Below are positions 32,597 through 37,383 of a stretch of 64,000 bases of DNA, piece by piece. Each line of letters begins with the position of its first letter. The stretch's first letter is position 1. The translations under genes and the position numbers were made by a program. The notes beneath the pieces were generated by a model that was given only the letters and a program-made list of their open reading frames with translations, did no database searches and had not been told where the DNA came from. The stretch lies in the NCBI GenBank assembly GCA_040218145.1, contig JAVJQK010000128.1:124001-188000 (forward strand). The letters run 5' to 3'. This DNA is from Sandaracinaceae bacterium. Its GTDB lineage: Bacteria; Myxococcota_A; Polyangia; Polyangiales; Sandaracinaceae.

Positions 32597-34891
32597 ATGC
32601 TCGATGTGCGCGAGGCGACTTGCATCCTGGTGCTCGCGGTCGCCTGCTCGGCCGCGCCCCTCGAGCCCGCTCGAGAGCCCCGGACTCCGCCCCCTTCGCC
32701 ACCGGTGCGCGCGTCCGCGCCCGAGCTCGTGCTCCAGGGCGGACACGTGGGATGGATCCACGCGCTCGCTCTCTCTTCGCGCGGCGACCGCGCGGCGCTC
32801 CTGAGCCTCGACCACCCGGACTTCGGCCAGACGCTCTCGTCCCCCATCCCGTTCGCCACGCTCTCGGTGGTGGACGTCCCTTCGGGCGTGACCCGAGCCG
32901 CGTGGCGCGTCCCCGCCCCGGAGCGGTCCGGTGGCGCGACGGTGCGCTTCGGCGGCGGCGACCGGCTGCTCACCGTCGACGGCCGCGTCGCGCGCGCGGT
33001 GCGGCTCACGGACGGGCTCACCCGCGTCTTCGACTTCGGGGAGCCCGCCCTCCCGCGTGACCTCGCGAGCGCCGTCGTCTGGCGGCCCGATGCGGTGGAG
33101 CATCGAACCGCCCGGGGCAAGACGCTCTGGTCGTCGTCGGTCGAAGCCTTCGATCTCTCGCTCGACCGCGAAGGGGCGCTGAGGCTTCGGGTGGGGAGCA
33201 CGCTGCTCGGGCTCGACGCGTGGGGTTGCAAGACATCCTCCGTCGCGGTCTCGGAGGAGACGGACGCTCGAGCGGTGCTGGCGAGGAGCCTGGACGGCCG
33301 CTGGTCGGTCGAGCGAAGCAACCATGGGCACGAGCTGCTCGAGGGCCCGACCGCCCGAGCGAGCCTCTCCGACGCGACGAGCGTCGACGACGACGCGCTC
33401 TTCGTCGAGCCGTCGTTCGCCTTCTCTCCCATCGACGACCGGCTGTGGGCCTGTCGTGTGATCAGGCCAGAGGAGGACGGCGAGGCGCGGGTTCGCTGCT
33501 GGGAGCTCGACCGGGCGGGGCACTCCGTCAGGCACTTCGATGTCCACCCTGAGCGTGAGCTCGACCGCGACGACCGAACCCTCGGGGCGCACCTCGTGAT
33601 CGCAGGGAGCGGGCACCTGGTGATCGCGGCCTCGCGGTCGGCCTGGATCACGACGCCGACGGGCGAGGTCGTCCATTCGCTGGAGGACGAGGAGCTCGAG
33701 GTCCTGGTGAGAGGCGCGATGGAGACGGATGACGGCTCGATCGCGCTGTCCTCCGCCGTGGCCCTCGGGTGGTGGGGCCCATCGGGCGCCGGGGCGTCGC
33801 TCTGCCCGGATCTACCGGACCGCGAAGCACGTCTCCGCCGCGTGGACGGCGTCCCGACGGCGTTCGCGTGGCGCTTCGTCTGTCCGCTGGGAGAGCCCGC
33901 CACGATGGCGGGACCCATGCACGCCGTCTCGCCCGACGGACACGGCCGCGTCGTGAGCGAGGAGGACTCGTTCGCTGGCGAGGTGGCGACGCTGGCCCGA
34001 GGCGGCCGCGTCACGCCGCTCGAGGGGACCGACGACGTGTGCTCGTTCGACGGCTGCTACCCGCGAGCGCGCTTCTCGCCCGACGGTCGATGGCTCCTGC
34101 TCGACGGCGCGCTCTTCGACGCGCACACGGGGCGCCGGATCCGGGCGCTCTCGGCCAGCGAGACCGTCGACCGCGCGTGGCGTCGCACCGTCCGCATCGT
34201 CGAGCGCGGAGGAGCTCTCCACGCCGTGGTGTTCGACCTTCTCGAGGCGGAGGTCGAGCTGGCCGCGCACGCGCTCGGGAGCCCCGAAGCCTTCTACCGC
34301 GCGGAGGCGCGAGTGCTCGTCGTCCGAGAGAGAGGCACACGCCTGGTGTTCTCGCTCGCCGACCACGATCCCTCCCGGCCGTGGTGGAGCCTCCTGGCGG
34401 ATGCGGTGGTGACGAGGGACGGTGGGCGCCTGACGGTGACCTGGCTCGACGACGGCGAGACGAGCGTCGAGCGCGTACCCGTCGGAGCCCCGATCGCGGT
34501 GGACCCGGAGCGCGGCCGGCTCGCGTGGTGCGACCTCGATGAGCTGAAGGTCTGGCGCCTCGGCGAGTCGCCTGCCCGATCCCTCGGCTCGTGCGCCGGT
34601 CGCGCCGTCCACGTGGGCGAGCGCTACGTGGTGACCGCCGACGGCTCGCGGGCTCGCGTCACCCGGCTCGACGACGGTCGTGGGCTGTGGGTTCGCACGG
34701 TCATCCGCCCCCGCCACCACGCGTGGACGATCGCCGAGGACGACGCGGGACGTTTCTGGATCGACCCCGCGCGCATGGCCCACGTACGGCGCCGCGCAGC
34801 GGGCCCTCTGCTCGACGCGGCGGTCTCCGAGGTGACGGTGCACACCGAGGGCTACGATCCCGAGCTCGTGCGGCGCTTCTTCGCCCCCTGA
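32597..34891 (+). CDS. Large beta-propeller-like lipoprotein
   Basis: 764 residues: MLDVREATCILVLAVAC, a lipobox at Cys17. Then a Pro-rich linker and a long strand-rich region starting GGHVGWIHALALSSRGDRAALLS, like a first WD40 blade, and repeated blade-like turns (RFSPDGRWLLLDGALFDAHTGRRIRALS). No enzymatic motif is seen. Roughly two seven-bladed propellers could fit. It lies between two divergent/convergent neighbours and appears monocistronic. It may be a protein-binding surface lipoprotein. Confidence 0.7.
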   Translation: MLDVREATCILVLAVACSAAPLEPAREPRTPPPSPPVRASAPELVLQGGHVGWIHALALSSRGDRAALLSLDHPDFGQTLSSPIPFATLSVVDVPSGVTRAAWRVPAPERSGGATVRFGGGDRLLTVDGRVARAVRLTDGLTRVFDFGEPALPRDLASAVVWRPDAVEHRTARGKTLWSSSVEAFDLSLDREGALRLRVGSTLLGLDAWGCKTSSVAVSEETDARAVLARSLDGRWSVERSNHGHELLEGPTARASLSDATSVDDDALFVEPSFAFSPIDDRLWACRVIRPEEDGEARVRCWELDRAGHSVRHFDVHPERELDRDDRTLGAHLVIAGSGHLVIAASRSAWITTPTGEVVHSLEDEELEVLVRGAMETDDGSIALSSAVALGWWGPSGAGASLCPDLPDREARLRRVDGVPTAFAWRFVCPLGEPATMAGPMHAVSPDGHGRVVSEEDSFAGEVATLARGGRVTPLEGTDDVCSFDGCYPRARFSPDGRWLLLDGALFDAHTGRRIRALSASETVDRAWRRTVRIVERGGALHAVVFDLLEAEVELAAHALGSPEAFYRAEARVLVVRERGTRLVFSLADHDPSRPWWSLLADAVVTRDGGRLTVTWLDDGETSVERVPVGAPIAVDPERGRLAWCDLDELKVWRLGESPARSLGSCAGRAVHVGERYVVTADGSRARVTRLDDGRGLWVRTVIRPRHHAWTIAEDDAGRFWIDPARMAHVRRRAAGPLLDAAVSEVTVHTEGYDPELVRRFFAP

Positions 34892-34915
34892 GGGCGAGCG
34901 GCCGGCGGAGCCGAA

Positions 34916-34937
34916 GCTGAGCGAGGAGCCGCTCAGC
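34916..34937. terminator. Hairpin between convergent genes
   Basis: GCTGAGC (34916-34922) and GCTCAGC (34931-34937), a 7-base perfect stem with an 8-base loop, between the end of the propeller gene (34891) and over the last codons of the HNH gene (34933). It could stop transcription from either side. No T-run. Confidence 0.45.
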
Positions 34938-36315
34938 GAGACCACATGAGCGGGTACGCGAGAGCTTCGTGCCGCTCCGGGGGACGCACCCACGTGGGGG
35001 TCGGCGGGCATGCACCGTACTCCGCCAGCTCTTCGCGCACGCAGCCCCCGATCGACACGCCCCGCAGCGCCAGCCGCAGCGCTTGCTCGGCCGTCGTCTC
35101 GGCCCCCACGTGGGGGCGCGCCTCGTCCACGAGTCGACGCGCCTCCCTCTCCTTGAAGCTCAGCGCCTTCAGCATCTGAAACACCTCGGCCAGGACGTGC
35201 GCCTTCTTCGGCTCCACCTTTGGCGAGCCGTAGGCGGACCCATCTGGGTGCTCGAAGATGAAGCCCGCGGACCAGGTGCCGCGGATGACGATCTTCCCTT
35301 CGTGCGCGATCCGGTGATGGGTCGAGCACAAGAGAATGAGCCGCTCGGGATCGTGGCTGCCGCCCTCGGACTTGGGGTCGCAGTGGTGCACGTCGCAGCT
35401 CGTGTTCTTGCACCCCGGCACCGCGCAGACGCCGCCGTGCCGACGCACCACCGCGCGGCGCACCGCGGGCGGGATCACCTGGCTCGCCCGCTCGTAGCCG
35501 GCCGAGATGTCCACCCGGCCGATGACCTGCGCGTCGCACTCGGCTACCTCGACCACTTCGGGCCCGACGGGGACCTGCTCGCCGCTCGCGTCCTGGGTGG
35601 CGGCCTTGCAGCACTCGCACACCGTCAGCGCGATCTGGTGCCGGCTCCGCGTCTCGTCCGCCCCGCCTCCGCCCGAGAGCGCGGTCGAGGCGAGCAGCTC
35701 GATGAACGCGTCGTCGTCGAGGTGCGTGCCGCCGCTCTCCGTGCGGAGCACGTCGCGCGCTTGCGCCAAGAGCGCGTACGCCGAGGGCGAGAGGTTCAAG
35801 GTCACCCGCTTGCGCTCGAGCTCGGGCCGCGTCGGATCGCTCGGCCGGTCGCCGGGCCTCTTGCCCGAGGTCATGCGCCCGATCTGCGACGCCGTCTTGC
35901 CGTCGGCGACCTCGAGCCACTCGGCTTCGGTCTCCGCGTCGGCCACCCGCGTCAGCTCGCGCACCGCGGAGTAGACGAGGTCACCCGCCGCGAAGGCGGC
36001 GCTGAGCTTCGGCAGCTCGTCGAGCCGCATCGCGACACGCACTCGCTCCTCGGTCGCGCGGCCCGAGCAGCCGAACCAGCGCTCGGCGTACTCCCGGAAG
36101 CTGGCGAATCCGTAGAGGTCGTGGACCTTCAGCCGGAAGCCGCAGAGGAACCACTGACAGAGCTCGAAGTCGCTCGCCGCGCGCAGGCGCCCGAGCTTCC
36201 TGAGAGTCTCGTCGGCTACCTGGCGAGAGGTGTCGGCCGACGGACCGTGTTCGATGAATGCCCCATGCAATTCACCTAGCACCAACCAGTACACTCGCCA
36301 ACTGTTTTTGCGCAT
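34933..36315 (-). CDS. HNH endonuclease with a RuvA-C-like tail
   Basis: 460 residues. A helical N-terminal part of DUF222-like type (LGRLRAASDFELCQWF, YAERWFGCSGRATEERVRVAMRLDELP) precedes an HNH nuclease: HGGVCAVPGCKNTSCDVHHCDP followed by PERLILLCSTHHRIAHEGK. The Cys-x4-Cys, His-His and His-His groups bind a metal and the catalytic His is in DVHH. After it, LKALSFKEREARRLVDEAR and EQALRLALR repeat the pattern of the RuvA C-terminal UBA-like domain. Such genes are common in actinobacteria and myxobacteria and may be selfish or DNA-repair associated. The upstream region (36316-36834) is AT-richer than the surroundings. Confidence 0.85.
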   Translation of the reverse strand: MRKNSWRVYWLVLGELHGAFIEHGPSADTSRQVADETLRKLGRLRAASDFELCQWFLCGFRLKVHDLYGFASFREYAERWFGCSGRATEERVRVAMRLDELPKLSAAFAAGDLVYSAVRELTRVADAETEAEWLEVADGKTASQIGRMTSGKRPGDRPSDPTRPELERKRVTLNLSPSAYALLAQARDVLRTESGGTHLDDDAFIELLASTALSGGGGADETRSRHQIALTVCECCKAATQDASGEQVPVGPEVVEVAECDAQVIGRVDISAGYERASQVIPPAVRRAVVRRHGGVCAVPGCKNTSCDVHHCDPKSEGGSHDPERLILLCSTHHRIAHEGKIVIRGTWSAGFIFEHPDGSAYGSPKVEPKKAHVLAEVFQMLKALSFKEREARRLVDEARPHVGAETTAEQALRLALRGVSIGGCVREELAEYGACPPTPTWVRPPERHEALAYPLMWSR

Positions 36316-36559
36316 TCACTCGCAGATTCTACCGTTTGATTTGTTCTACATTATGACCTCTGGAAATAACTACTGATGAAGCAGCGAAGGTGACGTCGCG
36401 CAGTCACCATTCTTGCCGCGATGGCACCGCGCCGTGTTTCGAAGCTTGCGCTCATGAGAGCGACTCCTCGTTGAAGTGTCGACCCCTCTACGAGAAGACG
36501 CCAGGGACATCGTTCGAGGCGGCAATTCGAGCCCAGATGGGCGCAGAAACAGCTCCACG
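36316..36559. other. AT-richer intergenic region upstream of the HNH gene
   Basis: This stretch between divergent genes is clearly poorer in G+C (e.g. 36326-36372 with TTTGATTTGTTCTACATTATG) than the rest of the window. On the minus strand TAGAAT lies about 10 bases upstream of the HNH start and CATAAT a little further, which may be -10 elements. No convincing gene. Two short frames exist on either strand (about 60 codons) but lack a ribosome binding site or recognisable product. Confidence 0.4.
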
Positions 36560-36734
36560 CGTCAAAATCGACGAAGCATGACTCTCAGCATCGATTTCCC
36601 GTCGAAATCGACGACTTTTCGATAGTCCTTCTCGAGTTATCGTCGAGATTGACGGTTCTCGGCTCTCTGTGACGATTTCTCGTCGAGATCGACGGAAACT
36701 TACTCTCCATGAGTTTCCTGGTCGAATCTGACGA
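36560..36734. repeat. Five palindromic boxes at about 40-bp period
   Basis: Boxes begin at 36560, 36600, 36641, 36681 and 36720 (spacing 40, 41, 40, 39). The consensus is CGTCGA-NN-TCGACG, a 6+6 inverted repeat with a 2-base centre. Boxes 2 (CGTCGAAATCGACG) and 4 (CGTCGAGATCGACG) are perfect. Box 1 has one and box 3 one mismatch; box 5 (GGTCGAATCTGACG) has more. The 25-base intervals differ in sequence, apart from a T-rich lead-in (GATTTCYC) before boxes 2 and 4. The spacing places each centre on nearly the same helix face. It may be a multi-site operator. Confidence 0.75.
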
Positions 36735-36834
36735 CTTCAGCGCGATGGAGGCGGCTGTCTTGCGCCTTGCTGATGCGATGACGGATCCGAACCCAGCGAC
36801 GACGTGGCCAGCCCGGTGCCGTATGCTCCGCGCG

Positions 36835-37383
36835 ATGGAACGCTGCCTTCGAACCATTGGCGACCGCTCACCCTGGAGCGCGCTCTCTTTCGTTGCGCTG
36901 TTGAACGGGTGCGCGGGCGCGCCCGCTCCCGTCGAGAGCGCGAGCGTGCAGCCCGTCTCGTCGCCCGGCGCCGATTCCGAGTCAGAGCCCGAGCCCGAGC
37001 CGCTCGTTGCGTCGACACCGACACCGACCGAGACCGACCAAGAGCGCGCCGCGGCCGCGCTCGAGCGCCTCGTCGAGGCCTGTCGCGCGGGAGAGTTCGA
37101 CGCGGCGGCGGCCTGCATCGTGGACCGAGGCCCCGGAGCGCCGCCCTGGTCGCGCGCCACGGACGCCAGCGACCCTGCGGCGCGCCGCCAGGTCGAGGGC
37201 ATCTGCGGCCGGATCGTCGGCGACCTGCGCGGCGGCGCCTACGAGCGGCTGGGCTATGAGAAGGCGCGACAGGGCGAGGGGCTCTGGCACGTGTGGCAGG
37301 TCCGCTACGCCGCGACCGGCGAAGAGGCGGTGTTCGCGTTCCTCGATATCGATGGCGTGATGCTGCTCGGCGACATCGACTGA
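36835..37383 (+). CDS. Small lipoprotein, unknown function
   Basis: ATG 36835 (or 36823) gives a signal sequence with lipobox ALLNGC (Cys23). A Ser/Glu/Pro linker follows (residues about 24-60, with SESEPEPEPL). The 110-residue mature part, starting ERAAAALERLVEACRAGEFDAAAACIVDRG, is a helical pair followed by strands (WHVWQVRYAATGEEAVFAFLDIDGVMLLGDID), an NTF2-like layout. The N-terminal ORF upstream of 36835 overlaps the palindrome array and is unlikely to be translated. It lies 5 bases from the convergent hydroxylase gene. Confidence 0.65.
   Translation: MERCLRTIGDRSPWSALSFVALLNGCAGAPAPVESASVQPVSSPGADSESEPEPEPLVASTPTPTETDQERAAAALERLVEACRAGEFDAAAACIVDRGPGAPPWSRATDASDPAARRQVEGICGRIVGDLRGGAYERLGYEKARQGEGLWHVWQVRYAATGEEAVFAFLDIDGVMLLGDID

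Follow-up and report, generated by a model that had tools for sequence, protein, structure and literature searches.

A row of five short palindromes, repeated about every 40 bp, lies between two divergent genes in the window (the whole stretch of 64,000 nucleotides that was analysed). Its regularity raises the question of whether the row is a multi-site operator, as the original prediction proposed, or a tandem repeat that happens to resemble one.

The box array in the window

Five boxes of the form CGTCGA-NN-TCGACG begin at 36560, 36600, 36641, 36681 and 36720, giving box-to-box spacings of 40, 41, 40 and 39 bp. Direct reading of the sequence, together with shuffling, confirmed the predicted boxes, two of them perfect, and their predicted placement between a minus-strand HNH open reading frame (34933-36315) and a plus-strand lipoprotein-like frame that starts at about 36823 or 36835.

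34933..36315, minus strand: DUF222-HNH endonuclease gene, divergent from the lipoprotein-like gene; the genome carries nine or more copies of it
36560..36573, plus strand: box 1, CGTCAAAATCGACG; one mismatch
36600..36613, plus strand: box 2, CGTCGAAATCGACG; perfect 6+6 dyad
36641..36654, plus strand: box 3, CGTCGAGATTGACG; one mismatch; four positions differ from strain MED-G138 (G183)
36681..36694, plus strand: box 4, CGTCGAGATCGACG; perfect dyad; outer arms ATTTCT...GGAAA partly symmetric
36720..36733, plus strand: box 5, GGTCGAATCTGACG; weakest dyad, up to three mismatches; found only at a looser threshold
36823..37383, plus strand: lipoprotein-like gene; no Pfam match; among ten genomes of the family, found in this species alone

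The 14-base box by itself is common in this GC-rich window (104 matches at two or fewer mismatches); the unusual feature is the regular row of boxes. Among 2000 dinucleotide shuffles of positions 36300-36850, none contained more than one box at one or fewer mismatches, against four in the real region, and none contained a pair of boxes 38-42 bp apart. The island that holds the array is, as had been noted, richer in AT than its surroundings, with a GC content of about 53% versus 70-75%. The proposal that the boxes share one face of the helix did not hold. At 10.5 bp per turn, 40 bp corresponds to 3.81 turns, which takes the boxes off a strictly common face; successive boxes are rotated by about 69 degrees per 40-bp step, and the spacing is not helically phased.

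The intervals between the boxes had been described as different in sequence. They are indeed not identical, but their summed pairwise alignment score (-39) exceeds that of every shuffle (mean -78, maximum -51; 0 of 150 reach the real score), and boxes 2, 4 and 5, with box 3 more faintly, show a unit of approximately GACTCTC....CGATTTCTCGTCGAaaTCGACGgAAAA. The repeat unit thus includes the intervals, and the explanation that had been named as fatal to the original prediction, an ordinary tandem repeat of 40 bp, is partly correct, although Tandem Repeats Finder did not report the window array. By this alignment the array reads as a decayed tandem repeat of a unit of about 40 bp, of which the palindrome appears to be the best-kept part. 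A tandem repeat and a set of separate sites are not exclusive descriptions; the array is both.

A duplicated module and its divergence between strains

The array is contained in a larger module with one paralogue (locus C148) in the 11-Mb genome of the host, a myxobacterial relative. Both copies have orthologues in Sandaracinaceae bacterium MED-G138 (G183), the nearest public relative met and the other strain compared here.

34801..34939, plus strand: segment X, the 3′ end of a neighbouring 746-aa open reading frame; found inverted near the C148 HNH copy, at C148:39416-39562
36365..36599, no strand assigned: non-coding stretch that starts 5′ of the array and runs into it; almost identical in the two strains, with 0-1 changes over most of its length
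36487..36752, plus strand: module holding the array, 266 bp, 87% identical to its paralogue at C148:43196-43460

A DNA search of 57 genomes, comprising this one and its relatives, revealed no further copies of the module. In the four homologous arrays the 40/41/40/39 spacing is identical and free of indels, at a divergence of 10-17% between paralogues. Sequence divergence between paralogous arrays is 5.7-10% in boxes and 16-17% in intervals, a difference that rests on small counts and is not significant alone. Both module copies adjoin a copy of the DUF222-HNH gene, and segment X is shared between the two places, which suggests that module, segment X and HNH gene were copied as one segmental duplication.

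The baseline difference between the two strains is about 1.5-2%. The window array exceeds it, at about 10%, while the C148 array differs by about 2%. Gene conversion or an imported allele could account for the fast divergence of the window array. A second dyad, GGTGAC-N8-GTCACC, is found near 36389 within the strain-invariant stretch.

Box arrays at other loci

To find more distant relatives of the array, the analysis used a model of the unit's sequence and also read through about 2.05 Mb of the genome base by base. At C113:35150 there are two boxes exactly 40 bp apart, with ATTCTCGTCAGAATCGACG common to both. At C140:22553 there is one clear box, and the orthologous place in strain G183 carries two, spaced by 40 bp; unit number is therefore different between strains at C140, and is constant at two loci. 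In another genus of the Sandaracinaceae (g3, genome G002), four boxes with the core GTCARAATCGAC or a variant follow one another at a period of exactly 40 bp. The G002 period lay within the range set by the search pattern, whereas the periods at C113 and in G183 were not imposed, and occurrence outside this species rests on the single G002 locus. With 59 control motifs, made by permuting the arms, no cluster reached three boxes. The intervals at C113, the G183 orthologue of C140 and G002 differ from those of the window array, and the 40-bp beat is common to all. With about four box loci found in this genome by the scan and the unit model, the arrays look like a small family of 40-bp period; on sequence resemblance, the species has at least three further members and a related genus has one.

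Several other matches were set aside. Repeats of GTCGA at 39-41 bp in related families (G001, G048, G133, G160-G164) consist of unrelated units and were read as tandem repeats picked up by the search pattern, and weak matches to the unit model elsewhere in this and related genomes fall mostly inside long open frames and were taken as chance. The plasmid collection gave no match, and in viral contigs a 17-base core pattern matched 11 times, each time singly and at scattered places. Six-base repeat tracts of the GCGGTCGCGGAAGCGG type, as at L130:1720-1910, occur at more than 60 places in the genome, and two of them adjoin box arrays.

At all five loci the boxes precede a gene start by about 30-260 bp, and it is possible to align the units in one orientation towards that gene, with the exception of unit 1 at C148, which scores better inverted. 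The downstream genes encode a sensor histidine kinase at C148, a secreted metzincin-like protein at C113 (its Pfam M10 match is below the curated cut-off, and the boxes lie about 30-80 bp upstream), an amidoligase at C140 and an unassigned protein in G002. In the window, the lipoprotein-like gene is the likeliest target. Control of both divergent genes had been envisaged, but for the HNH gene this is doubtful, since its other copies keep the same upstream region of about 80 bp and no array was found in those of their flanks that were examined.

Operator or minisatellite

Because the palindrome appears to be the most conserved part of the unit, four arrays share an indel-free spacing, and the 40-bp beat recurs upstream of genes, the original proposal of a multi-site operator survives as the best reading, for an array that is also a degenerate tandem repeat of about 40 bp. 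The promoter region holds several dyad-symmetric sites, as such an operator would. We hold with moderate confidence, at about even chances, that the array is an operator or upstream activating array through which a putative dimeric regulator controls the downstream gene; protein binding, the regulator with the sign of its effect, and the gene it governs are what we infer from arrays, homologues, period and upstream positions read directly from the DNA. A dimeric DNA-binding protein would recognise GTCR-N4-YGAC, often with TTCTC on the left flank, at putative sites spaced 40 bp from centre to centre, and the bound array would control the lipoprotein-like gene on the plus strand. The array would then belong to a small dispersed family of promoter arrays, with a 40-bp period and two to five boxes each, present in this species and in one or more further genera of Sandaracinaceae, with new units arising by tandem duplication, after which intervals would drift while box and period are kept.

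The main rival, which is less probable and yet a serious contender, is an inert intergenic minisatellite, in which a palindrome-cored unit of 40 bp was duplicated in tandem, copied to a few sites and left to decay neutrally. It would explain the residual similarity of the intervals, the strain differences in unit number and sequence at C140, the nearly perfect tandem repeat in G002, the apparent movement of the 266-bp module with segment X and the HNH gene, and the abundance of simple repeats in this genome. The 10% strain divergence of the window array also favours it, and by comparison with the baseline appears fast for an operator. No solo boxes outside the arrays stood out in the unit-model search or the scan, and therefore no regulon is visible; this also counts against an operator, as do a period that is not a whole number of helical turns and the histidine kinase orthologues of other genera, which lack the array. 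Four features sit poorly with neutral decay, however: the absence of spacing indels from four arrays, the exact 40 bp at C113 and in G183, the retention of the dyad core where intervals are unrelated, and the positions upstream of genes.

A third reading, which we consider unlikely, is a lineage-specific module in which a putative dimeric protein would polymerise along, or wrap, the DNA over boxes 40 bp (3.8 turns) apart. Such a module would spread from promoter to promoter as whole arrays are copied, and would diverge rapidly between strains.

The HNH gene family and RNA structure

A tie to the DUF222-HNH family, with the array as a target of the nuclease or the end of a mobile HNH element, seems improbable. 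Two arrays do lie 200-450 bp from HNH copies, in equal relative orientation. The family comprises at least nine copies (window, C75, C7, C148, C50, C124, C61, C53 and C47) that are roughly 89-95% identical, form a nearly star-like tree and occupy orthologous positions in the other strain; they are more diverged between strains than their flanks, suggesting gene conversion. An element end would be present at every copy, but no array was found in the flanks examined of the other copies, several of which end at contig ends, and the region of about 80 bp upstream is common to the copies. For these reasons the array is not part of the HNH unit, nor the module a standard control region for it. Moreover, a gap of 200 bp separates the module from the end of the HNH repeat unit at about 36282, and the contigs of the C113 and C140 arrays have no HNH match.

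Around 36255-36275 nearly all other HNH copies have ATGGGGGCATT, and the window copy has ATGGGGCATT. In the window copy the usual start would fall out of frame, and translation would need a start further upstream. The HNH protein was not filed as IscB, since its match to the IscB model, 45.6 bits against a cut-off of 175, is weak and spans the HNH region.

Still less probable is a transcribed structured RNA, with a row of hairpins in a 5′ leader. The plus strand folds modestly better than shuffles (z -2.6), but the minus strand reaches only z -1.6, the core in sense orientation often has A-C mismatches (C113, G002), the loops are not conserved, and Rfam gave no match. Pairing is no better between the two arms of one unit than between arms taken from different units, either in the core (0.86 vs 0.89-0.90) or in the outer arms (0.44 vs 0.46 for different units within arrays), and this comparison revealed no base-pair covariation within units. 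With modest folding on one strand and no covariation, half-sites for a protein are a simpler reading than a hairpin. The suggestion of a partition-like site or iterons found no support: the chromosome has copies at several loci, and neither a Par nor a Rep gene was seen beside the array.

Comparison with known elements

Multi-site operators of dimeric HTH regulators, such as the P. putida xre-res promoter with its several repeats (PMC12204516), offer the closest parallel to the preferred operator reading. Like them, the window array places several copies of a short inverted repeat in a promoter region; it differs in its long and regular 40-bp beat and in that several unrelated genes carry an array of its kind. 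BOX elements and MIRU/VNTR loci consist of short tandem units that are intergenic, dispersed and strain-variable. These properties are common to the arrays, but here there are about four loci in the genome, a strong dyad in each unit and heavily diverged intervals. The REP13E12 elements of mycobacteria are DUF222-HNH repeats, and the HNH gene beside the array likewise comes from a many-copy DUF222-HNH family; the box array, however, lies outside the repeated HNH unit.

A CRISPR array was rejected, as the core is only 12-14 bp versus repeats of about 24-37 bp, the repeats are degenerate, and the would-be spacers are related to each other and common to the paralogues. A coding repeat was rejected as well, with a period (40/41/40/39) that is no multiple of three and paralogue differences that, by eye, ignore frame.

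Implications

If the array is inert, it serves as a warning that degenerate palindrome-cored tandem repeats can mimic operators. A regulatory array would illustrate the copying of a multi-site promoter array from one gene to another, and it would provide a ready bait for its regulator in a little-studied family of bacteria with large genomes.
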